IMG/VR virus record: IMGVR_UViG_3300028393_000144
Coordinates: 1 to 39,865 of that record
Strand: one strand, 5' to 3'
DNA: 39,865 bases
DNA from: a virus
The notes beneath the pieces are model-generated. The model did no database searches. It was not told the origin of the DNA and was given only the letters and a program-made list of their open reading frames with translations. How positions within the stretch are numbered: the first letter of the stretch is position 1; each line of letters starts with the position of its first letter. Made by a program: the position numbers and the translations under genes. This document shows positions 10,737 through 18,496 of the stretch, piece after piece.

Positions 10737-12590
10737 TTATGCCAGACGGCGATCAGAGATCCACTCGTCAAGGTTGACGACTTGTCTCTTCTCAGCATCT
10801 GATCGTGTTAGAAATTCATTCTTAACATACTGACCACCGTATTCACCAAACTGGCAAATCTCTCTGGCTCTAATCTCGCAGAACCACATGGCCATAACTA
10901 AGTCTGTTTTATTCTTTGTCTCTGGAGACCAAGTTACTAGTTGGTCAATGAGAAGTCGGATACCTTCATGGCGATCCGATGGAAGATGTATGAGGTTATC
11001 CCTGTGGTGTTTACCGTTAGGTTCCACAGATCCGAACAAGGCAGACATTGCTGCTACGCCGAATCCGACATCCCATTTGTTTCTAGATGTAGTGTGTTCA
11101 CGAAGAAGCACACCACGATTTGCAAGCCAAGCCCGTAGATTCTCATCCTGTGTCAGGTAACCCTGAAAGGCGTTCCGTTCAACCATCCATTCAGATGGTT
11201 TGTATTTTTCGGTTAATGTCGTGATGAGATCACGGATTGCTTGCGGAGACGGCTTAGTTATCGTAGCGGCATCCAAGATGTATCTTTTCTTCCGTCTACG
11301 ATCTACAGCCATTACGACTGCTGCCGTATCACCAACTATTGCAGGATCAAGTCCAGCAATGATGGTGAGACCTTCTATTGTTTCGGGGTGTCCGGGGTTG
11401 CCAGCAACCATTGGCCCGATCATTCTCATGCGATCGATAGAACCTTTAACGCATACTGTGTTGAAGACTGAATCTTCATCCACATCAGCTTGCTGGTAAA
11501 CCATCGACCAAGTTTTAGGATCTAATGCACCACGGCGCATTGAGAGATGGTGTCCATCCCAACGGGGATAGAGTCCACTATCATCGGCCTCATCCTCTCC
11601 ACCCTGCCATGGGCGGTCTGATTTAGGCCATAAGGTTTTCCAGTCCTTTGGATCTTCAGCAAATTCAAGAACTGCTGGCATTGCAAGGTATGTCCAAGGA
11701 GACTTGCCGGTGGGGTAGCGTTCTCCGTTACGGAGTTCTCTATACAAGTCAATGGAATCTACGCGAGTGCCTAAGACTAAAAGTTTGCCCGTAGGCCCAA
11801 GACGGGTAAGGACTTCCTGTTGAATCCAACGGATGTGTTTTTCATACTCGTGGGCATTGCTCATGGTTACACAGTCGTCAAGGATAATCAGGTCAGCTCT
11901 TGCACCGTAAACCTGACCACCAATACCGATAGCCTGAATGGTTGGGTCTTTCTGGTCTGAGTCACGGAGTTCATCTCCGAGATAGACTTGTGTTGCTTGC
12001 CATGTAGCAGACTTAGACTTAAAGCCAGAGCCAGCCGCATAGGCTAACTGCAACTTCTGCCACGATGGGTGAGTCAGTCTTTGTTTGATGGCATAAATAA
12101 ATTCTGTTGCCTTCTGCTGTGATTTGGATACGATCATGATTCGCACATTTGGATCCATACAGATTCGGTACACGGGGTAGTCGATTGAGGTTGTCATCGA
12201 TTTAGCGTGTTCCGGGGGCACATTCACCAGCACATACTGGGTGCGGCCTTGTTCAAATTGCATAGAGGTATGCATCCACTCAGGCTCATTACCTTCAAGA
12301 AGGTTAATGATATTCATCTGGTGTGGGAAAGTCTCAGCTTCTAAATACTCCTTGCGAAAATCGCGAAAGGACATCGTGAGAGATTCATCGGACTGGATAC
12401 GACCCTTTTTGGATCTAGCAGCACGGATCGTGTCAACTTGCTCTTTGAACTCTTTATCGGTGGAGCGGTAGTAATCCCATAGCTTTGCTGAGCGGCCTAC
12501 TTGCCTCATGGCATCTTCAACCGTACAGCCTTCAGTAATCAGGCGAATAACTCTAGCCTTGATCTTAGCTGTCTCTTCTTGCTTACTCAT
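10737..12590 (-). CDS. terL: Terminase large subunit with N-terminal HTH
   Basis: The packaging ATPase/nuclease. The start is set at MSKQEE because GAGGAG sits 5 bases upstream; an upstream in-frame ATG would read through the hairpin at 12601-12615. Residues about 15-50 look like a helix-turn-helix (CTVEDAMRQVGRSAKLWDYY). The ATPase has a Walker-A-like PPEHAKS (residues 125-131) and Walker B LIILDDC (about 234-240). The RNase-H-like nuclease begins at GLDPAIVGDTAAVV (about 435), whose first Asp is the expected metal ligand. Total 617 aa. No separate small terminase gene is evident, so the HTH may supply DNA recognition; that is inference. Confidence 0.93.
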   Translation of the reverse strand: MSKQEETAKIKARVIRLITEGCTVEDAMRQVGRSAKLWDYYRSTDKEFKEQVDTIRAARSKKGRIQSDESLTMSFRDFRKEYLEAETFPHQMNIINLLEGNEPEWMHTSMQFEQGRTQYVLVNVPPEHAKSMTTSIDYPVYRICMDPNVRIMIVSKSQQKATEFIYAIKQRLTHPSWQKLQLAYAAGSGFKSKSATWQATQVYLGDELRDSDQKDPTIQAIGIGGQVYGARADLIILDDCVTMSNAHEYEKHIRWIQQEVLTRLGPTGKLLVLGTRVDSIDLYRELRNGERYPTGKSPWTYLAMPAVLEFAEDPKDWKTLWPKSDRPWQGGEDEADDSGLYPRWDGHHLSMRRGALDPKTWSMVYQQADVDEDSVFNTVCVKGSIDRMRMIGPMVAGNPGHPETIEGLTIIAGLDPAIVGDTAAVVMAVDRRRKKRYILDAATITKPSPQAIRDLITTLTEKYKPSEWMVERNAFQGYLTQDENLRAWLANRGVLLREHTTSRNKWDVGFGVAAMSALFGSVEPNGKHHRDNLIHLPSDRHEGIRLLIDQLVTWSPETKNKTDLVMAMWFCEIRAREICQFGEYGGQYVKNEFLTRSDAEKRQVVNLDEWISDRRLA

Positions 12591-12600
12591 AACTCTCCTC

Positions 12601-12615
12601 GCCAGCTTCGCTGGC
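12601..12615 (-). promoter_or_regulatory. Hairpin abutting the terL ribosome site
   Basis: GCCAGC-TTC-GCTGGC forms a perfect 6-bp stem with a 3-base loop. On the minus-strand transcript it ends immediately before the GAGGAG ribosome-binding site of terL (12595-12600), so it could modulate terminase translation or mark an mRNA 5' end. Confidence 0.5.
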
Positions 12616-12720
12616 GTGATCGCCAAAGATTTTTCATTGGGTTTAGCGGTTCTAGAAAAGAACAGACTACTGGGCATTTACTAGGGGTACTTAGTCTGCC
12701 TTCGCTCGCTAGGGCTCGCT

Positions 12721-12739
12721 ACGGCCCCCTAAGGGCCGT
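12721..12739. repeat. Inverted repeat ACGGCCC/GGGCCGT
   Basis: A 7-bp perfect stem (12721-12727 with 12733-12739) with a 5-base loop. It has no T-run, so it is not a classical terminator on the plus strand. Together with the next two inverted repeats it forms a cluster of three within 92 bp in the divergent region. Confidence 0.6.
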
Positions 12740-12769
12740 TATAGTCGTCTAATTACTTTCCAGTAATTA
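12738..12769 (-). promoter_or_regulatory. Candidate minus-strand promoter with overlapping operator-like inverted repeat
   Basis: On the minus strand TATAAC (12743-12738) is a good -10 match, but the -35 position (TTACTG, 17 bases upstream) is weak. The inverted repeat TAATTACT-TTCC-AGTAATTA (12750-12769) has an 8-bp perfect stem and covers the -35/spacer, as an operator would. It would drive terL and the late genes. Confidence 0.35.
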
Positions 12770-12789
12770 TCCTCCTATATACAATAAGC

Positions 12790-12817
12790 CGGGATAAGTA
12801 GTGTTTATCCCGCTTTT
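12790..12817 (+). terminator. Hairpin with short T-run in the divergent region
   Basis: CGGGATAA (12790-12797) pairs with TTATCCCG (12805-12812) around a 7-base loop and is followed by CTTTT. No plus-strand gene lies upstream, so if it terminates it would stop antisense transcription leaving the terL region; otherwise it may be a protein-binding or origin hairpin. Confidence 0.45.
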
Positions 12818-13025
12818 GGTACTGTGAGTTACATCACATAGAAACCAATGTATCTATATCCGTGTATAAGTGCTGGTCAGAGTGCATATCAGAGATCACA
12901 GCTCCTATCAAAAATATCTTTCTGGGTACATATACATGGCCCCCGACCGCATTATTAGCACTCGGGTCATTTCTTTGCAGGGTGTGTCGAGCAGGGGGTC
13001 TGCCTGACTTACCCCTACCCCATAC

Positions 13026-13051
13026 GGGCAGACTTGGGCAGACTTGGCAGG
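13026..13051. repeat. 10-bp tandem repeat GGGCAGACTT
   Basis: GGGCAGACTT occurs twice in a row (13026-13045) and starts a third time as GGCAGG. Related words (GGGGTCTGCC, GGCAGACC) occur at 12996-13005 and 13190-13197. Short direct repeats in a non-coding control region are typical of iterons or terminase/regulator binding sites. Confidence 0.6.
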
Positions 13052-13156
13052 GTCTAGGGGCTGAGGCTTGGAGACTAAGACTCTTTCAATGTTCGCCGTC
13101 TAAGTAATCGCCTAACACTTGGGGCATTACTTGGGGCAGGGCTTGGCACTAATCGA

Positions 13157-13184
13157 GGGGGCAAGGGCAGGGCAAGGGGCAGGG
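13157..13184 (+). other. G-quadruplex-forming tract
   Basis: Five G-runs of three or more are separated by 2-3 bases (GGGGG-CAA-GGG-CA-GGG-CAA-GGGG-CA-GGG), which satisfies the standard intramolecular quadruplex pattern on the plus strand. Further G-runs flank it from 13120 to 13215. Such tracts can affect replication initiation, packaging or transcription. Confidence 0.6.
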
Positions 13185-13337
13185 AATCGGCAGACCTTGA
13201 GGGCTTGGGGTCTTGGGTCTTGGCCTCGGGTCTTGTCCGGAATCTGACTATGTCCGGAATCTCTGGAATCTCTGAAAGCCTTGTAATCCGCTTACTTTCG
13301 AGGCCTCGAGATTAGGCCAACACGATCTCGGGAATGC

Positions 13338-13366
13338 TTGAGATTTACGAGCTGAGGCCTCATACT
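13338..13366 (+). promoter_or_regulatory. Candidate promoter for the plus-strand early block
   Basis: TTGAGA (13338-13343) and CATACT (13361-13366) are separated by 17 bases. Both are imperfect sigma-70 matches (4 of 6 each). Transcription from it would begin near 13373, at the base of the hairpin at 13374-13392. Confidence 0.3.
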
Positions 13367-13373
13367 TGAGGTG

Positions 13374-13392
13374 TAAGGGAATCTCTCCCTTA
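13374..13392 (+). promoter_or_regulatory. Leader hairpin of early unit 1
   Basis: TAAGGGA (13374-13380) pairs with TCCCTTA (13386-13392) around a 5-base loop, 8 bases ahead of the leader motif at 13400. Hairpins also precede the other two copies of that motif. With no gene upstream on this strand, a 5' mRNA element is more likely than a terminator. Confidence 0.45.
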
Positions 13393-13399
13393 TTCATTA

Positions 13400-13408
13400 C
13401 CTACAGAA
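13400..13408 (+). promoter_or_regulatory. Early leader motif, copy 1 (CCTACAGAA)
   Basis: The motif CCTACAGAATG lies 12 bases before the ATG of the 160-aa gene. It recurs at 14119 and 15281 with the same gene-proximal placement. This copy lacks the CCAACCAA extension seen in the other two. GAGG (13411-13414) may provide the ribosome site. Confidence 0.6.
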
Positions 13409-13420
13409 TGAGGCTCTACT

Positions 13421-13903
13421 ATGAACGACATCAAGACCGATTTACCTACTCACCTCGAGGCTAAGAATGCACTCGATTCTCTTCTCGATTCATTCCAAGA
13501 TTCGAGAATGCTTGAAGAGGTAGCAATCAAGACCGCCACTCTTGGAATCGCTGAGAGTGTGCAGATTCGCGACTATGCACTCGGGGCGATTGGAATCGCT
13601 TTAGATTCTGAAGATTCTCTCGACTTCATAAATGCGATTCAATTACTCGGGCAAGATTCGGCAGCACTCGAGGCGATTCGAGGGGCTTATCTTTACGAGT
13701 TAGGCAATAAGACCGAGGCCAATAAGGCACTCGATAAGGCTTTCGAGTTACAGAATGGACACTCACTCGCTCTTCTCTTGCGCCGAGTCTTTAGTGCTGG
13801 CTGGCCTTGCGAGTCTTTCCGTTCAATGCGTAACGAGTTACACCCTCGAGTCGAGGCAGGTCTGAAAGACCTCGAGGAGGTGTTGGTCAATGCGAGCAAC
13901 TAA
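13421..13903 (+). CDS. DUF4192-like helical protein, 160 aa, first early gene
   Basis: Residues about 70-135 (LGQDSAALEAIRGAYLYELG, then ALDKAFELQNGHSLALLL) resemble the C-terminal helical-repeat part of DUF4192 proteins, which are common in actinobacteria and their phages and have no established biochemical role. The upstream half of that family is missing or unrecognisable. The protein is soluble, helical and acidic. Codons here favour CTC, GAG and CGA, unlike the late genes, and TCGA is very frequent. Being first behind the leader motif, it may be an early host-interaction protein; function is not shown. Confidence 0.82.
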   Translation: MNDIKTDLPTHLEAKNALDSLLDSFQDSRMLEEVAIKTATLGIAESVQIRDYALGAIGIALDSEDSLDFINAIQLLGQDSAALEAIRGAYLYELGNKTEANKALDKAFELQNGHSLALLLRRVFSAGWPCESFRSMRNELHPRVEAGLKDLEEVLVNASN

Positions 13904-14030
13904 TCCCGTAATTACTCTCCTCGATTCCGAGACTCGAGAGGTGCTTGTATTCGCACCTCTTAGCAAGACCCGACTCAATGCCCTAGTAAAGGCATACTCT
14001 CGGGCAGGTATCGAGGCCGTAATCGCTTAG
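13890..14030 (+). CDS. Small early protein, 46 aa
   Basis: Starts inside the end of the DUF4192-like gene (14-base overlap), with GAGGAGG at 13874-13880 ending nine bases before the ATG. The product (MRATNPVITLLDSETREVLV...) has a strand-strand-helix look and ends AGIEAVIA. No family recognised. Codon use and TCGA density match its neighbours. Confidence 0.7.
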   Translation: MRATNPVITLLDSETREVLVFAPLSKTRLNALVKAYSRAGIEAVIA

Positions 14031-14042
14031 GCCGTAAAGTGG

Positions 14043-14074
14043 GGGCAAGGCCTTAGGTCTTGCCCTTGCTTTAT
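14043..14074 (+). terminator. Terminator of early unit 1
   Basis: GGGCAAG (14043-14049) pairs with CTTGCCC (14059-14065) around a 9-base loop and is followed by TTGCTTTAT. It comes 13 bases after the stop of the 46-aa gene and before the next copy of the leader motif, as expected for a unit boundary. Confidence 0.6.
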
Positions 14075-14109
14075 GTCTAAGAGATTCCCACCGGAATCCT
14101 CGAGGCATA

Positions 14110-14130
14110 ACCAACCAACCTACAGAATGG
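14110..14130 (+). promoter_or_regulatory. Early leader motif, copy 2 (ACCAACCAACCTACAGAATGG)
   Basis: Core CCTACAGAA at 14119-14127, extended upstream by CCAACCAA. It ends 10 bases before the ATG of the 118-aa gene. A GATTCC/GGAATC inverted repeat (14083-14098) lies just upstream. The extended motif is shared with copy 3 (15272-15289). Confidence 0.65.
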
Positions 14131-14137
14131 ATACAAG

Positions 14138-14494
14138 ATGAAAGATGAGAAGAAAGCGCAAGAGTTTAGACCTTGCGACACAAGCGAGACCCTCGCTCAA
14201 CTCGGGAGAAATAATCTCTTGGCGATTAGTGGGGGAAGAGTAATCAAGCGCGAGAGTGGCGTTACCTTGCCCGTATCTAATGGGTATTCCGTAACGATTG
14301 ACCTCGCTTGGAATGATACTTATACAGTAAGAAGAATCTTTACTCGTAGCGGTAAAGAAACTATAAAAGAGCTGGTAAATGTTTACGCCGAGGACTTGCC
14401 CGAGGTTGCTTATTTTGCCTCTTGCTTTAGGTCTCACCCTGATTGGGGTAACAAGACTTGGCAAGATACTGTGAACGGGAAGGAATCCGCCTAA
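14138..14494 (+). CDS. Conserved hypothetical early protein, 118 aa
   Basis: It resembles a widespread conserved hypothetical protein of actinobacterial phages and mobile elements, with a NLLAISGG motif near residue 28 and an LAWNDTYTVRRIFTR strand pattern near residue 58, ending in a helical region ahead of EVAYFASCFRSHPDW. The function of that family is not known to me. It is a small alpha/beta protein without a signal peptide or membrane segment. It is the first gene of early unit 2 and overlaps the next gene by one base (TAATG). Confidence 0.82.
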   Translation: MKDEKKAQEFRPCDTSETLAQLGRNNLLAISGGRVIKRESGVTLPVSNGYSVTIDLAWNDTYTVRRIFTRSGKETIKELVNVYAEDLPEVAYFASCFRSHPDWGNKTWQDTVNGKESA

Positions 14495-14655
14495 TGAAAC
14501 TAACTAAACGAGGCGAGATAGTTCTCACGATCTCTTTACTAATCAACGGGGCGATTCTTATCGGTCTGCTTATGTGGGGTCTCGACCACCTGAATTGGGT
14601 CGGAGACCACTACTGCTTCAAGTCCTCTCTCGAGTGTTATTTTGGGGGTGAGTGA
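14494..14655 (+). CDS. Small membrane protein, 53 aa
   Basis: The start (MKLTKRGEIVL) is chosen at the TAATG overlap with the preceding stop; an upstream in-frame ATG would lie inside the previous gene. It has a basic N-terminus, one transmembrane segment at residues about 9-28 (VLTISLLINGAILIGLLMW), then a short polar tail with two Cys. It is probably inserted in the host membrane early in infection; function unknown. Confidence 0.72.
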   Translation: MKLTKRGEIVLTISLLINGAILIGLLMWGLDHLNWVGDHYCFKSSLECYFGGE

Positions 14656-14659
14656 TTAG

Positions 14660-14851
14660 ATGCCAATCTATACAATGGAGGTGGTAACTCAAGTCCTCAC
14701 TATCACCGCCGATAATGCAGAACAAGCCGAGGAGAAATACGCGGCTCACTTTGATTACAGCGAACCTTGCCCTTGCGGTGAAGGCGGTTGCGATTGCGTT
14801 GAAGATAGCGAAGATTGCTACCACATCACTACAGAAGAAGGTGCAGAATGA
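14660..14851 (+). CDS. Small acidic Cys-rich protein, 63 aa
   Basis: The N-terminal half is a short strand-helix unit (YTMEVVTQVLTITADNAEQAEE), and the C-terminal half holds five Cys in CPCGEGGCDCVEDSEDC, plausible for zinc or Fe-S binding. A related N-terminal pattern appears in the 135-aa protein at 15681. GGTG at 14646-14649 may serve as a weak ribosome site. It overlaps the next gene by four bases (ATGA). No family recognised. Confidence 0.72.
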   Translation: MPIYTMEVVTQVLTITADNAEQAEEKYAAHFDYSEPCPCGEGGCDCVEDSEDCYHITTEEGAE

Positions 14852-14955
14852 GGATTCCAACGAAGGCGAAGTGTCCGGAATGTTCTCGGGTCTTCGACCT
14901 GCTAGATGATAACGATTGCCAAGAGTGGGCTTATGGCCACGATTGCGAGGCATAA
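14848..14955 (+). CDS. Zinc-ribbon-like micro-protein, 35 aa
   Basis: A very short gene overlapping its neighbour by ATGA. It has CPEC near the N-terminus and two further Cys plus a His (DC...GHDC), a plausible four-ligand zinc site. Similar micro-proteins are common in actinophage early regions. It is small enough that coding status rests on overlap, composition and motif. Confidence 0.6.
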   Translation: MRIPTKAKCPECSRVFDLLDDNDCQEWAYGHDCEA

Positions 14956-14958
14956 GCG

Positions 14959-15054
14959 GTGCTAACTATTCACGCTGGAGATTGCTCGACCGATTGCCCG
15001 ACTTGCGTGGCGAATTGTGATTGCCCTAAGTGCAAGAAAGGGGGTGAGGAATGA
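14959..15054 (+). CDS. Cys-rich micro-protein, 31 aa, GTG start
   Basis: It begins with GTG three bases after the previous stop and overlaps the next ATG by four bases (ATGA). Its 31 residues include six Cys (CSTDCPTC, then CDCPKC), a metal-binding pattern. No ATG alternative exists in frame. The tight chaining with both neighbours supports it as a gene. Confidence 0.5.
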   Translation: MLTIHAGDCSTDCPTCVANCDCPKCKKGGEE

Positions 15055-15218
15055 GCGTTCATAAAACTTGGGTCGTGATTTATTCAAGCGACCCTCTCGC
15101 AACACACGACTTGGCAACAAGACTCGAAGGGCTTGAGTGGTGGATTACCGATAGGGATAACAGCGAAGAAAGCAAGACAGCGACTCGAATGATTGACCTA
15201 ACGCAACTAAAAGATTAG
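15051..15218 (+). CDS. Small early protein, 55 aa
   Basis: Begins at ATGA with GGGGGTGAGGA just ahead, a good ribosome site inside the preceding gene. The product (MSVHKTWVVIYSSDP...) has an N-terminal hydrophobic strand, an aromatic patch (LEWWITD) and a polar C-terminus. Last gene of early unit 2, followed 10 bases on by a hairpin. No family recognised. Confidence 0.65.
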   Translation: MSVHKTWVVIYSSDPLATHDLATRLEGLEWWITDRDNSEESKTATRMIDLTQLKD

Positions 15219-15228
15219 TAGCCGATAG

Positions 15229-15254
15229 GGCAGGGGGTTATCTCCCTGCCTCTT
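15229..15254 (+). terminator. Terminator of early unit 2
   Basis: GGCAGGG (15229-15235) pairs with CCCTGCC (15244-15250) around an 8-base loop, followed by TCTT. It lies between the stop of the 55-aa gene and the third leader motif, the same arrangement as at 14043-14065. The T-run is weak. Confidence 0.55.
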
Positions 15255-15271
15255 CGGGTGTTCATCTGAAT

Positions 15272-15289
15272 ACCAACCAACCTACAGAA
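15272..15289 (+). promoter_or_regulatory. Early leader motif, copy 3 (ACCAACCAACCTACAGAA)
   Basis: Identical to copy 2 over 18 bases. The core ends 9 bases before ATG 15299, close to the spacing in copies 1 (12) and 2 (10). This placement helps choose 15299 over the nearer ATG at 15293. AGAAAG (15286-15291) may be the ribosome site. Confidence 0.65.
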
Positions 15290-15298
15290 AGAATGATA

Positions 15299-15688
15299 AT
15301 GAAGATAAGTGATAGCAAGATAGAAGTTATCGAGGCTGATAATTTCTCTATTGAAACTAAATACAGAATGACCCTGAAACACGAAGATGAAACTGTCCAT
15401 TGGATTGGATTCATTGGTGAGTATGGAATGGTAAGTGAATGGTGGAGTGCAGACGAGAAGAGAATTGAAGAACCCGATTGGATTGACGGGGAAGATTCTT
15501 TATTCGACATAGCAGAAGAGAAGTGCAAGGAGAATGAAAAGAGCTTCGATTGGCTCGTTACTAAAGTTCTCGAGATCTGTCCGAGTGCAACTTTCGAGAG
15601 AGATAATGAAGGCCAAGTTGTTATCTATACAGGACTCGAAGAAGATGAGACTGGCACACTAAAGAAGTTAGAGGTGGATAATGCCTAA
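15299..15688 (+). CDS. Early protein, 129 aa, first gene of unit 3
   Basis: The start is set at MKISDSKIEV because AGAAAG lies 7 bases before it; ATG 15293 would put that site almost on the start codon. The protein is acidic, with an N-terminal beta-rich part (residues about 1-50, including WIGFIGEYGMVSEWW) and a helical middle (DSLFDIAEEKCKENEKSF). No family recognised. It overlaps the next gene by 8 bases. It is probably an early host-takeover or regulatory protein, by position only. Confidence 0.75.
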   Translation: MKISDSKIEVIEADNFSIETKYRMTLKHEDETVHWIGFIGEYGMVSEWWSADEKRIEEPDWIDGEDSLFDIAEEKCKENEKSFDWLVTKVLEICPSATFERDNEGQVVIYTGLEEDETGTLKKLEVDNA

Positions 15689-16088
15689 GTATCGAGTAAC
15701 CCTGAAAGAGATAGTCCTACACGAGTTGTTTATTGAGGCAGATAACGAGTCTGATGCACGAGAGATTGCTCGTGGAATGGACTCGCCTGAAGGCTCAACC
15801 GAGGTGCAAGGTGCTGGCTGGGTAGAAACCGGCGACATTCTAGAAGTGGGTTACTACTGCTTCGATTGTGGTTGGGAAGATTCCAACCATACTTTCTTTA
15901 CTGAGGTCAATGGAAAGTTCTATTGCTCTATTCACTTTAGTAAATGCTGTAAATCTTTATCAACTTGGAAAGATTGCAGAGAACACTTGGAGTCTCCTTG
16001 TTATGAGACCACTTGCGATAAGTGCCACGAGGTTACTTGGGCTGAGTGCAAGGAACACGAACTCGGAGTTAGGGGGGTGAATGTATGA
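15681..16088 (+). CDS. Early protein with multiple Cys/His pairs, 135 aa
   Basis: The N-terminus (YRVTLKEIVLHELFIEADNESDAREIA) is a strand-strand-helix unit seen in several small phage proteins. From residue about 58 there are CFDC, YCSIHFSKCC, CREH, CYETTCDKCH and CKEH: up to eleven Cys and several His, enough for two zinc sites, suggesting a small zinc-binding adaptor or nucleic-acid-binding protein. It overlaps both neighbours (8 and 4 bases). Function unknown. Confidence 0.78.
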   Translation: MPKYRVTLKEIVLHELFIEADNESDAREIARGMDSPEGSTEVQGAGWVETGDILEVGYYCFDCGWEDSNHTFFTEVNGKFYCSIHFSKCCKSLSTWKDCREHLESPCYETTCDKCHEVTWAECKEHELGVRGVNV

Positions 16089-16321
16089 GTTATGCATACC
16101 GAGTTACTTTCGTAACTGACTATCTGACTATCACTACAACTGTGGAGTTAGAGGCTGATGATTCTTTCCAGAATCTAAGCAACGAGGCCTATGAGCAAGC
16201 GGCTATTTGCGGTATGAACAATGTCCAAGATTCGATTGGCAAGATAGATGAGTCAATTATCAACGACATAACTGTAACCCTGCTACTTGATGATGAGGAG
16301 GTAGAACTAAATGAAGGATAA
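16085..16321 (+). CDS. Small acidic early protein, 78 aa
   Basis: Linked to the previous gene by an ATGA overlap, with GGGGGTGA just upstream. The product is acidic, with an N-terminal beta strand (YAYRVTFVTDYLTITTTVELEA), a helical middle and a C-terminal strand ending EEVELNEG. No motif recognised. The C-terminal GAGGAGG also serves as the ribosome site of the next gene. Confidence 0.72.
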   Translation: MSYAYRVTFVTDYLTITTTVELEADDSFQNLSNEAYEQAAICGMNNVQDSIGKIDESIINDITVTLLLDDEEVELNEG

Positions 16322-16598
16322 GTGGCTAGTAACGATTGAGATAGATACCTATGACGGAGATCCGCGCTATTGGGATTGGGACATAATCTTTTCCGGCGAG
16401 GAAGACATAAAGATAATCAGCAGCAATCGCAAGGGTCGCGTATTTCCTACACAAGAGGGAGAGAGCGACCAAGACTCGATTTCGTGGGGTGAATTGGCGG
16501 AACTCACACACGCCACTCAGCTCGAACGATTCAACTGGTGTTCTTGCGAAGAGCAGGAAGACTTTCCATACAGCGACTGCCCTAGAAAGGTGGTCTAG
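16311..16598 (+). CDS. Small early protein, 95 aa
   Basis: Starts 11 bases before the previous stop, behind GAGGAGG at 16295-16301. It has an N-terminal strand-rich part with aromatic residues (WLVTIEIDTYDGDPRYWDWDIIF) and a C-terminal WCSCEEQEDFPYSDC with three Cys that could bind a metal. No family recognised. It stops directly before the TTG start of the next gene. Confidence 0.72.
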   Translation: MKDKWLVTIEIDTYDGDPRYWDWDIIFSGEEDIKIISSNRKGRVFPTQEGESDQDSISWGELAELTHATQLERFNWCSCEEQEDFPYSDCPRKVV

Positions 16599-16724
16599 TT
16601 GATAGGCTTTGGACTATTCATACTTACATTCTTTACCTTGCCTCTTGGAATTACCGAGGGGCAACCATTACTAATAACGATACCTCTCCTCGCTTGGGGA
16701 GTGGCTATCTTGTTTGGGGGATAA
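16599..16724 (+). CDS. Membrane micro-protein, 41 aa, TTG start
   Basis: It begins with TTG directly after the previous stop, with AAAGG (16586-16590) 8 bases upstream, and its own stop directly abuts the next ATG. Two hydrophobic segments (LIGFGLFILTFFTLPLGI; LLITIPLLAWGVAILFG) form a probable helical hairpin in the membrane. It precedes a secreted Rpf-like protein, so a holin-like or envelope role is possible but unproven. Confidence 0.6.
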   Translation: MIGFGLFILTFFTLPLGITEGQPLLITIPLLAWGVAILFGG

Positions 16725-17129
16725 ATGCACCGACTAACACTCGGTTTGGTTGCGTTGGGGCTGGCTCTTATGCTTGCCCCAACTGCACCCATAACCGCAA
16801 GAACAGAACCAACACAGAATCAAGTGCCTATTTTGATTAGAGTTCCAGACATTGAGATCACCGATCTCCCATTGGCTTGGCAAAAACTTGCCACCTGTGA
16901 GTCCGGTCAAAGACACAATGCCGTCAGCGGCAAACGCGATCAGTTCCAAGGATATTTTCAGATTGAATATCCCCGGACTTGGAAAGCCCACGGCGGCACA
17001 AGCGGCACACAACCCAAGAATGCAACGCTAAGAGAACAGTTCGCTGTAGCTCTGCATATATATGTAAACCGAGGCCATAGTCCTTGGCCTTACTGTGGAA
17101 AATTCCTCAAGGAATACTATGGTAAGTAA
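16725..17129 (+). CDS. Secreted resuscitation-promoting-factor-like muralytic protein, 134 aa
   Basis: Residues 1-25 form a signal peptide (hydrophobic LGLVALGLALMLAPTAPITA). Residues about 50-130 match the Rpf/transglycosylase fold family: WQKLATCESG with the conserved Glu after Cys, the QGYFQIEYPRTWKAHGG core, an EQFAVALHIYVNRG helix, and SPWPYCG, whose Cys pairs with the first in Rpf domains. Rpf proteins cleave peptidoglycan and stimulate regrowth of dormant actinobacteria. Here it is the last plus-strand gene, away from the endolysin. It could act in wall remodelling, entry or host activation. The domain call is strong; the phage role is open. Confidence 0.85.
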   Translation: MHRLTLGLVALGLALMLAPTAPITARTEPTQNQVPILIRVPDIEITDLPLAWQKLATCESGQRHNAVSGKRDQFQGYFQIEYPRTWKAHGGTSGTQPKNATLREQFAVALHIYVNRGHSPWPYCGKFLKEYYGK

Positions 17130-17394: not shown

Positions 17395-17870
17395 TAGTTT
17401 ATGTAACTCCCTCTGAACTTGCGTAGTGCATCTTCCGGCACACAATAAAGCTCTGGCCTCTTCCAGTCTGGCTTGTCTAAGAACTCTGGTTTCTTAGCAT
17501 CACCACCCATGATCCAACCAATGAGTTCATAGTCCGGCATACCACCCTTGACCAATACAAACTTCACATCATCATCAGCTTCAGGTCTGATTAACAACCT
17601 GCCATTCTGGTGCTTGGTAAACTTTACATCTATATTCGGCTTTATATCTACACCATTCTCACCAAAGTTTGCACCCCAGTAAAGACCAAGATACTTAGCA
17701 ACTGCAATCTCTGATCCACATCCATCAACATCTAAAAGTATTCGCTCCCAAGGATTCATATCCTTAAGGCCATGCATCTGTGCGTTCTTCATGGTAGATA
17801 CATATCGTTCAATCGCTGTGTTCGCTGCGAGTACCACCTCGTAGCGTTCTAGCGTTACCTTTAACCCCAA
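17394..17870 (-). CDS. Putative PD-(D/E)XK-type protein, up to 158 aa
   Basis: The central segment (GCGSEIAVAKYLG, then VDIKPNIDVKFTK, then GRLLIRPEADDDVKFVLV) looks like the core of a restriction-endonuclease-like fold, with a Glu on the first helix and D-x-K on the following strand. This is a resemblance, not a firm assignment. The longest frame begins with TTG 17870, overlapping the sigma-like gene by 10 bases; a later GTG or ATG start is possible because no clear ribosome site is seen. It is cotranscribed with the zinc ribbon downstream. Confidence 0.65.
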   Translation of the reverse strand: MGLKVTLERYEVVLAANTAIERYVSTMKNAQMHGLKDMNPWERILLDVDGCGSEIAVAKYLGLYWGANFGENGVDIKPNIDVKFTKHQNGRLLIRPEADDDVKFVLVKGGMPDYELIGWIMGGDAKKPEFLDKPDWKRPELYCVPEDALRKFRGSYIN

Positions 17871-18496
17871 GGCGTGGGCCCACCTAGATGGTCAATCATT
17901 TTGCGTAAAGCTTTCTGAATCTTTCTATCAACTGTAGAGTCTGAGTACCCCATCTCTGTTGCTATATCCGAGAGGATCATTGGAGATGCACCGTATCTAC
18001 TGGTGAGTATGAGTTGCTGTTCATCATCCAATAATTCAAATGCAGATCGTATGTCTATGACCATGGCTAATACATTGCCACCCTCACTAGGCACCGGTGG
18101 TTTACGAGGAGTGCCATCATCAACTCGATCAATAAGAACTGCACCCTGCGATTCAAACTGCAACGCTACCGGTAGTAGTGATGCCAAGGTTATGGTGTCG
18201 TAGAAGAACTCATCACCTGTTGAATAGCCTAGCTTTGCTGACTTCTCTTTACGAGAATACTTTTCTATGTGCCTACGGAACCGAGCCATCAACCTGCGAG
18301 CAACCCACTTGGTCTCTTCTTTGCTGACTTCATACGATGCATCAAGTGACTCAACCAATTTAGGTCGCTGGATTATATACATCCTCAGCTCTTGCTCGAG
18401 GTCGCTGCGTTCTACATAGTCATGAAATCTACGATGGATAAATGCAGAGGTGATCTTTACCAGATCCTCGATATGCTCGTCAGCCCGTTCGGTCAT
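17861..18496 (-). CDS. Sigma-70-family-like transcription factor, 211 aa
   Basis: The N-terminal part (RRFHDYVERSDLEQELRMYI, then WVARRLMARFRRHIEKYSR) fits a region-2-like helical domain, and the C-terminus carries a region-4-like HTH: FELLDDEQQLILTSRYG, then LSDIATEMGYSDSTVDRKIQKALRKM. A linker of about 60 residues lies between. Such proteins bind host RNA polymerase and redirect it to phage promoters. It overlaps the 34-aa gene by ATGA. As no phage RNA polymerase is present, it is the leading candidate for switching gene classes, perhaps via the leader motifs at 13400-15289; that link is inference. Confidence 0.75.
   Translation of the reverse strand: MTERADEHIEDLVKITSAFIHRRFHDYVERSDLEQELRMYIIQRPKLVESLDASYEVSKEETKWVARRLMARFRRHIEKYSRKEKSAKLGYSTGDEFFYDTITLASLLPVALQFESQGAVLIDRVDDGTPRKPPVPSEGGNVLAMVIDIRSAFELLDDEQQLILTSRYGASPMILSDIATEMGYSDSTVDRKIQKALRKMIDHLGGPTPWG

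Follow-up and report, generated by a model that had tools for sequence, protein, structure and literature searches.

Actinophages have been known since 2011 to carry start-associated sequences, for which the original description gave no mechanism. In the cluster K mycobacteriophages, the SAS/ESAS GGGATAGGAGCCC has been proposed to act in translation initiation, with no mechanism attached (PMC3203893), and SAS/ESAS of the form GGGAAAGGACCCC are known from the Microbacterium cluster EF phages (PMC7302621). For phage phi29, UAGAAAG is listed as the Shine-Dalgarno (SD) sequence of gp6 and gp7 (PMC5427494). The stretch of viral DNA that we analysed (39,865 bases in full, hereafter the window) holds exactly three copies of a core motif, CCTACAGAA, all of them within a + strand cluster of small genes (13421-17129) divergent from terL [Table 1]. 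From our analysis, the leader to which this motif belongs is genuine, specific to its clade and most readily understood as an RNA element, and the sequence comparisons suggest, with modest confidence, that the copies form the 3' part of a modular translation-initiation leader for the first gene of each of three units.

Dinucleotide shuffles of the window contained 0.30 copies of the core on average and 2 at most, and none of 100 shuffles held three or more. These sole exact copies lie where the earlier note had located them, and the distances that it gave from the core to the start codons (12, 10 and 9 bases, to the ATGs at 13421, 14138 and 15299) hold if unit 3 starts at 15299; a second in-frame ATG lies at 15293, only 3 bases past the core of copy 3, and homologues favour 15299. 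The identical 18-base block that it saw in copies 2 and 3 was also recovered (ACCAACCAACCTACAGAA, at 14110-14127 and 15272-15289). The motif in its title, however, heads all three units only as the core, the 17-base form being confined to copies 2 and 3 while copy 1 reads TTCATTACCTACAGAA. Of the hairpins that it placed ahead of the motifs, the one in unit 1 (13374) is indeed adjacent to the motif, but those at 14043 and 15229 are upstream, terminator-like hairpins, and a second hairpin next to the motif in units 2 and 3 had been missed. The label 'early' for these units is inferred from their position in a divergent small-gene operon beside terL.

Table 1. Features of the three gene units, with positions in the window and the basis of each assignment.
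Feature	Position	Strand	Basis or remark
Predicted sigma-70-type promoter of unit 1, TTGAGA-17-CATACT	13338..13366	+	Promoter scan, 9/12 matches; conservation
Predicted transcription start of unit 1, 7th base past the -10	13373	+	Promoter geometry; one base ahead of the hairpin
Unit 1 motif-adjacent hairpin, TAAGGGA-ATCTC-TCCCTTA	13374..13392	+	All stem pairs standard in 18/18 relatives
Motif copy 1, CCTACAGAA	13400..13408	+	Exact-copy search; motif columns invariant in aligned unit 1 leaders
Unit 1 gene, 160 aa, all-helical, TPR-like	13421..13903	+	Weak DUF4192 similarity; AlphaFold model
Unit 2 upstream hairpin (H1), followed by TTGCTTT	14041..14067	+	Fold; terminator-like; 3' of the stop of the preceding gene
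Unit 2 motif-adjacent hairpin (H2)	14071..14110	+	Fold; whole-leader z -3.61
Motif copy 2, within ACCAACCAACCTACAGAA	14119..14127	+	Exact-copy search
Unit 2 gene, 118 aa	14138..14494	+	ORF list; slot 2 genes non-homologous among relatives
Unit 3 upstream hairpin (H1)	15228..15251	+	Fold; stem nearly invariant in 15 relatives
Unit 3 motif-adjacent hairpin (H2), GGTGTTC-ATCT-GAATACC	15257..15274	+	Fold and covariation
Motif copy 3, within ACCAACCAACCTACAGAA	15281..15289	+	Exact-copy search
Unit 3 gene, 129 aa (131 aa if ATG 15293)	15299..15688	+	Start picked from homologues

The unit 1 protein matched Pfam PF13830 (DUF4192) at E 3e-4, which is under the curated cut-off, and its AlphaFold model has a pLDDT of 91.8; comparison with PDB structures returned weak TPR-type matches only, none at E <= 0.001. 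The best matches of the terminase are those of the 'Ca. Planktophila' phages E7 and F5 (~49%), followed by Streptomyces phages (42-43%). The host used to isolate E7 and F5 was a freshwater 'Ca. Nanopelagicales' strain (PMC10202952). Gene products of the window phage include a transglycosylase as well as a sigma-like protein (17861-18496) and a glycosyltransferase, the latter two of which are likewise reported for E7 and F5. Because its terminase is nearest to those of E7 and F5 and it has gene content in common with them, the window phage probably infects a low-GC freshwater actinobacterium. Against genome contigs, the terminase found one match, in Phytoactinopolyspora (42%), which is distant, and therefore no host was assigned from it. 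A DNA-level BLAST of positions 12000-17000 against phage records gave no match, and a tRNA search found none.

We gathered relatives by a 17-base scan, by protein searches (unit 1 and unit 3 products, terminase) and by shorter motif scans. Among the matches listed from the 14- and 16-base scans of viral contigs most were due to chance, and when scan matches were filtered for a hairpin, an ATG and an ORF, most of the remaining ones came from the same phage group. By hand count, at least ~28 related contigs have the hairpin-motif-ATG arrangement at the corresponding slots, so the search of related phages proposed in the earlier note does find the motif at the same positions. Even contigs whose unit 1 protein has fallen to 61% or 48% identity (the latter in L021) retain the motif, and variants are few (CCTACGGAA in L018 and CCTACAGAG in L020). 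A fourth copy in L053, L116, L183 and L255 was set aside as probably coincidental; it lies within the end of the upstream coding frame (ENLQKEGK, by eye) with no strong hairpin adjacent.

In the main slots, an RNA hairpin ends 5-10 bases ahead of the motif, and the motif ends 9-15 bases ahead of the ATG. The sequence of these motif-adjacent hairpins differs between relatives while the pairing is kept, and the motif is nearly constant. In unit 1, the 18 relatives show TA, GC, CG, AT and GT changes with every stem pair still standard, a count that leans towards structure because the hairpin arms were set by hand; the mean shuffle z of this hairpin is -2.65, and the unit 1 leader including TGAGGTG folds no better than its shuffles (z -0.63). 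In unit 2, the upstream hairpin has 4 of its 10 pairs changed on both sides with 100% of cells paired, and its covariation score (0.455 versus 0.158 shuffled) was reached by none of 500 shuffles; it was not in the output of the terminator scan. The motif-adjacent hairpin of unit 2 is replaced by different hairpins in L041 (GGGGTTACTAAACCCC), L053 and L107 (both AGTGATTA-TAATCACT) and L058, and hairpin energies are weak in leaders of the L004/L006 type (in a short folding window). The motif-adjacent hairpin of unit 3 likewise has 100% of cells paired, with two pairs changed on both sides (GC, AU and GU types), and versions slid along the sequence pair in only 44-53%; its covariation score does not exceed the shuffle control, because most columns are invariant, and none of 500 shuffles reaches its count of cells changed on both sides. 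Taken one by one, the hairpins have moderate z-scores against shuffles (-0.5 to -4.6). A search of Rfam 15 gave no match above the gathering score in the window, nor on E7 and F5.

Behind these leaders the genes are exchanged. Three non-homologous gene families occupy slot 2 (8, 4 and 2 members), and slot 3 holds one family of 12 and three singletons, which indicates that in these slots the leader belongs to the slot and not to the gene. The unit 1 gene was never swapped in our sample, and its leader is kept.

Promoter-like matches in the scanned region are no more numerous than in shuffles, so the weight of the promoter call for unit 1 comes from its conservation in relatives: in the 17 aligned unit 1 leaders, TTG, the 17-base spacer, the -11A and the -7T (xAxxxT) are invariant. 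The stem begins 7 bases past the -10 in nearly all relatives and 8 in L020 (read by eye). This conserved TTG-17-xAxxxT ahead of the hairpin thus predicts a transcript that starts at the hairpin base, and this start, together with the covarying hairpins, would place the motif inside the RNA rather than make it a promoter itself. No comparable promoter-like element was seen ahead of the hairpins of units 2 and 3. An inverted repeat across the unit 1 -10 (CCTCAtacTTGAGG) was considered as an operator and dropped because it is absent or broken in L006, L018, L020, L027 and L036 (by eye).

For pairing with 16S rRNA, we used an actinobacterial tail ending CACCTCCTTTCTAA, which comes from another actinobacterium and may differ from that of the true host. 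With this tail, the motif-led leaders of the window gave -7.8, -6.3 and -5.6 kcal/mol, whereas the internal genes at ~14660, 15051, 15681, 16085 and 16311 gave -14.3, -21.3, -12.3, -15.8 and -14.0 kcal/mol. A similar contrast between weak motif-led and strong internal genes is seen in six relatives, where it rests on genuine internal genes picked by eye, because the comparison group (65 ORFs, mean -9.65 versus -7.35) includes spurious ones. The weak SD of the motif-led genes could equally reflect deliberately low or regulated translation. AGAA in units 1 and 2 and AGAAAG in unit 3 can pair with UUCU/CUUUCU of the 16S tail 12-15 bases ahead of the ATG, which amounts to an SD in an extended sense (4 or more uninterrupted pairs within the allowed distance), again with a 16S that is not necessarily the host's. 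The permitted range is given as 12-23 for B. subtilis with a UCU-ending tail (PMC5427494). CCTAC has no partner in the 16S 3' tail, and outside the tail the motif was complementary to 16S in one 7-base run only (~467), about what composition predicts. In essence, SD-like pairing accounts for AGAA(A)G and leaves the strictly conserved CCTAC unexplained.

A role at translation start fits these observations best, because the motif has one orientation, lies 9-15 bases from the ATG, stays constant behind covarying hairpins and is kept through gene swaps. Such a leader would be read in the order hairpin, 5-10 unpaired G-poor bases, CCTACAGAA(A/T), 9-15 bases and ATG. In unit 1 the transcript would start at the hairpin base, and the 5'-terminal hairpin would shield the mRNA end and keep the start region open; in units 2 and 3 the motif-adjacent hairpin would insulate the start region against whatever lies upstream, and the terminator-like hairpin before it would mark the 3' end of the previous unit. 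AGAA(A)G, which in the window has a normal spacing of 12-15 bases to the ATG, would pair with the UUUCU at the 3' end of 16S rRNA, and CCTAC would be an extra sequence-specific signal, read by the ribosome, a host factor or a phage factor. Conceivably, though this extension is speculative and in our view unlikely, a phage or host factor devoted to CCTACAG reads it as a sequence-specific translation-start signal and so takes the place of canonical SD recognition at the lead genes, with factor and motif changing together between lineages (CCTACAGAA here, GACAGGAGAA in E7 and F5, GAAAGGAC in L078).

The strongest rival, which we nonetheless regard as doubtful, is a translational operator, in which an RNA-binding protein of phage or host, or an RNA, would bind the unpaired CCTACAGAA beside a generic hairpin and repress or switch on the lead genes of the three units together. 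Where translation of the three genes begins, a constant single-stranded element lies next to hairpins that are conserved only as structure, as would be expected of such an operator, the intrinsic SD of the motif-led genes is weak, and related phages carry a different motif that is uniform across the operon. Nevertheless, no candidate regulator was found, the unit 1 protein being TPR-like and helical with no clear nucleic-acid-binding match, and a scan of both strands of the window detected no exact complement of the motif elsewhere.

RNA processing or stability is a less probable reading. In units 2 and 3, an endonuclease would cut the linker that separates the two hairpins, and each released mRNA would be monocistronic with a hairpin at either end; the motif would be part of the recognition site or an unstructured spacer. 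The short linker between the tandem hairpins and the tRNA-like elements in the upstream-hairpin slot of E7, F5 and L078 are consistent with it, but unit 1 carries the same motif and, since it has its own predicted promoter at the hairpin, needs no cut there; moreover, the hairpin-directed nucleases known to us do not demand a strict CCTACAGAA. Still less likely is that the leader is a recombination boundary, conserved since homologous exchange there shuffles gene cassettes between phages. The same leader before non-homologous genes in slots 2 and 3 suits this idea, yet the hairpin arms covary rather than being identical, a pattern of which a recombination site has no need, identity is limited to the motif, and the unit 1 leader is kept although its gene is unswapped in the sample. 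That the motif itself is a promoter particular to the phage, or a DNA operator, is highly improbable. The sequence does recur ahead of three gene units and the phage does encode a sigma-like protein, yet the motif keeps a set position relative to both the ATG and the covarying RNA hairpins, the conserved TTG-17-xAxxxT of unit 1 is a distinct element located before hairpin and motif, and no accompanying hexamers were seen at a constant distance in units 2 and 3. A nut/put-type antitermination site is an RNA site near a promoter that lets polymerase pass terminators, and the position of the motif at start codons would speak against one. Of the roles that the earlier note had offered for the motif (promoter, translation enhancer or RNA-processing site), the translational one therefore fits best and the promoter is disfavoured, while processing is needless at the motif in unit 1 and could still act on the linker that joins the successive hairpins in units 2 and 3.

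To our knowledge, few genetic parts exist for the abundant freshwater actinobacteria, and the leader may serve as an expression module for them. Within the operon itself, genes with a strong SD can act as internal controls; the clade also offers natural gene swaps behind a constant leader, and the cultured relatives E7 and F5 ('Ca. Planktophila') carry a matching leader that is open to testing.

Compared with the cluster K SAS/ESAS, the leader shares a short asymmetric repeat in one orientation just ahead of non-structural gene starts (here 3/3 copies on the + strand, in a divergent operon), an upstream element of inverted-repeat form (directly upstream at many cluster K sites, here a hairpin) and a position before genes of different families. 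It works like SAS/ESAS and is not a member, because it lacks AGGAG, differs in sequence, has fewer copies set farther from the start codon and is headed by covarying hairpins: CCTACAGAA(A/T) is unrelated and pairs with the anti-SD tail at -5.6 to -7.8 kcal/mol; there are 3 copies in 39,865 bases of a record that may be incomplete, against 11-19 per genome; the motif lies 9-15 bases from the start (6-12 if the three bases past the core are counted), against 3-7 bp; and the 17-bp inverted repeats of cluster K are conserved in sequence, with little support for RNA pairing according to their authors, whereas the hairpins here vary and covary. The cluster EF SAS/ESAS likewise joins a conserved motif at the ribosome-binding position to a linked upstream element in an actinophage, but that motif contains the SD and differs in sequence, and its upstream element is weakly conserved, centred on GTAGAG and without a covarying hairpin. 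The UAGAAAG of phi29 gp6 and gp7 is likewise an SD without AGGAG that pairs at the very end of the 16S tail; unlike our leader, it lacks CCTAC, and the accessible part of that source describes no conserved hairpin module (PMC5427494). E7 and F5 (OX376640, OX376641) have a syntenic divergent small-gene operon beside terL and the same order of hairpin, motif and ATG, and their operons have 7 and 6 GACAGGAGAA-type sequences, respectively, in place of the motif, several behind hairpins; unlike the motif of the window phage, GACAGGAGAA is an overt SD with an AGGAG core, and tRNA-like elements take the upstream-hairpin slot at several sites. In L078, GAAAGGAC occurs three times, also with tRNA-like elements in that slot. 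In L022, with a unit 1 homologue of 39% identity, GATAGGAGAA comes after a hairpin. These layouts indicate that the architecture is wider than the motif, with one motif per lineage. What this clade adds to the older cases is RNA covariation of the upstream element and a motif without a canonical SD.

Word usage in the divergent operon, the run of small plus-strand genes beside terL, is distinct from that of the remaining window: CTCGA occurs at 4.7 per kb in positions 12678-17129 vs 0.42 per kb elsewhere in the window, and GANTC at 10.3 vs 3.6 per kb. The ∼660-base stretch between genes at 12678-13337, G-rich on the plus strand, contains repeats (TGTCCGGAATCT and GGGCAGGG among them), and similar stretches were found in relatives; it is perhaps an origin or packaging region.

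In two 'Ca. Planktophila' phages with a syntenic operon, E7 and F5, and in the contig L078, intergenic tRNA-like elements occupy the slot of the terminator-like upstream hairpin (see table). These comprise an acceptor-like stem of 7 bp and a T-arm of 5 bp with the loop TTCAAGA or TTCGAGA, without D or anticodon arms. A pattern scan returned two in E7 and one in F5, vs 0.15 per shuffled genome; at the weaker E7 element, the two phages differ by paired changes. The elements are possibly RNase P/Z punctuation of the phage operon.

tRNA-like elements in relatives of the window
Element	Genome	Position	Strand
tRNA-like	L110 (OX376640, E7)	about 2205-2160	minus
tRNA-like	L110 (OX376640, E7)	about 1430-1380	minus
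tRNA-like, weaker	L110 (OX376640, E7)	about 1810-1755	minus
tRNA-like	L109 (F5)	about 23538	+
tRNA-like	L078	divergent region	

The motif copy embedded in the end of the upstream coding frame has grown in L183 to three tandem 15-base units (2146-2184), directly 5' of ATG. Read by eye, several units in the divergent region of L074 each have their own TTGAxT-17-TAxxxT-like promoter, its -10 overlapped by an inverted repeat whose arms vary from unit to unit.

The product of the operon's first gene (window 13421-13903) was confidently modeled as an all-helical, TPR-like fold (pLDDT 91.8), and is weakly similar to the C-terminus of actinobacterial DUF4192.
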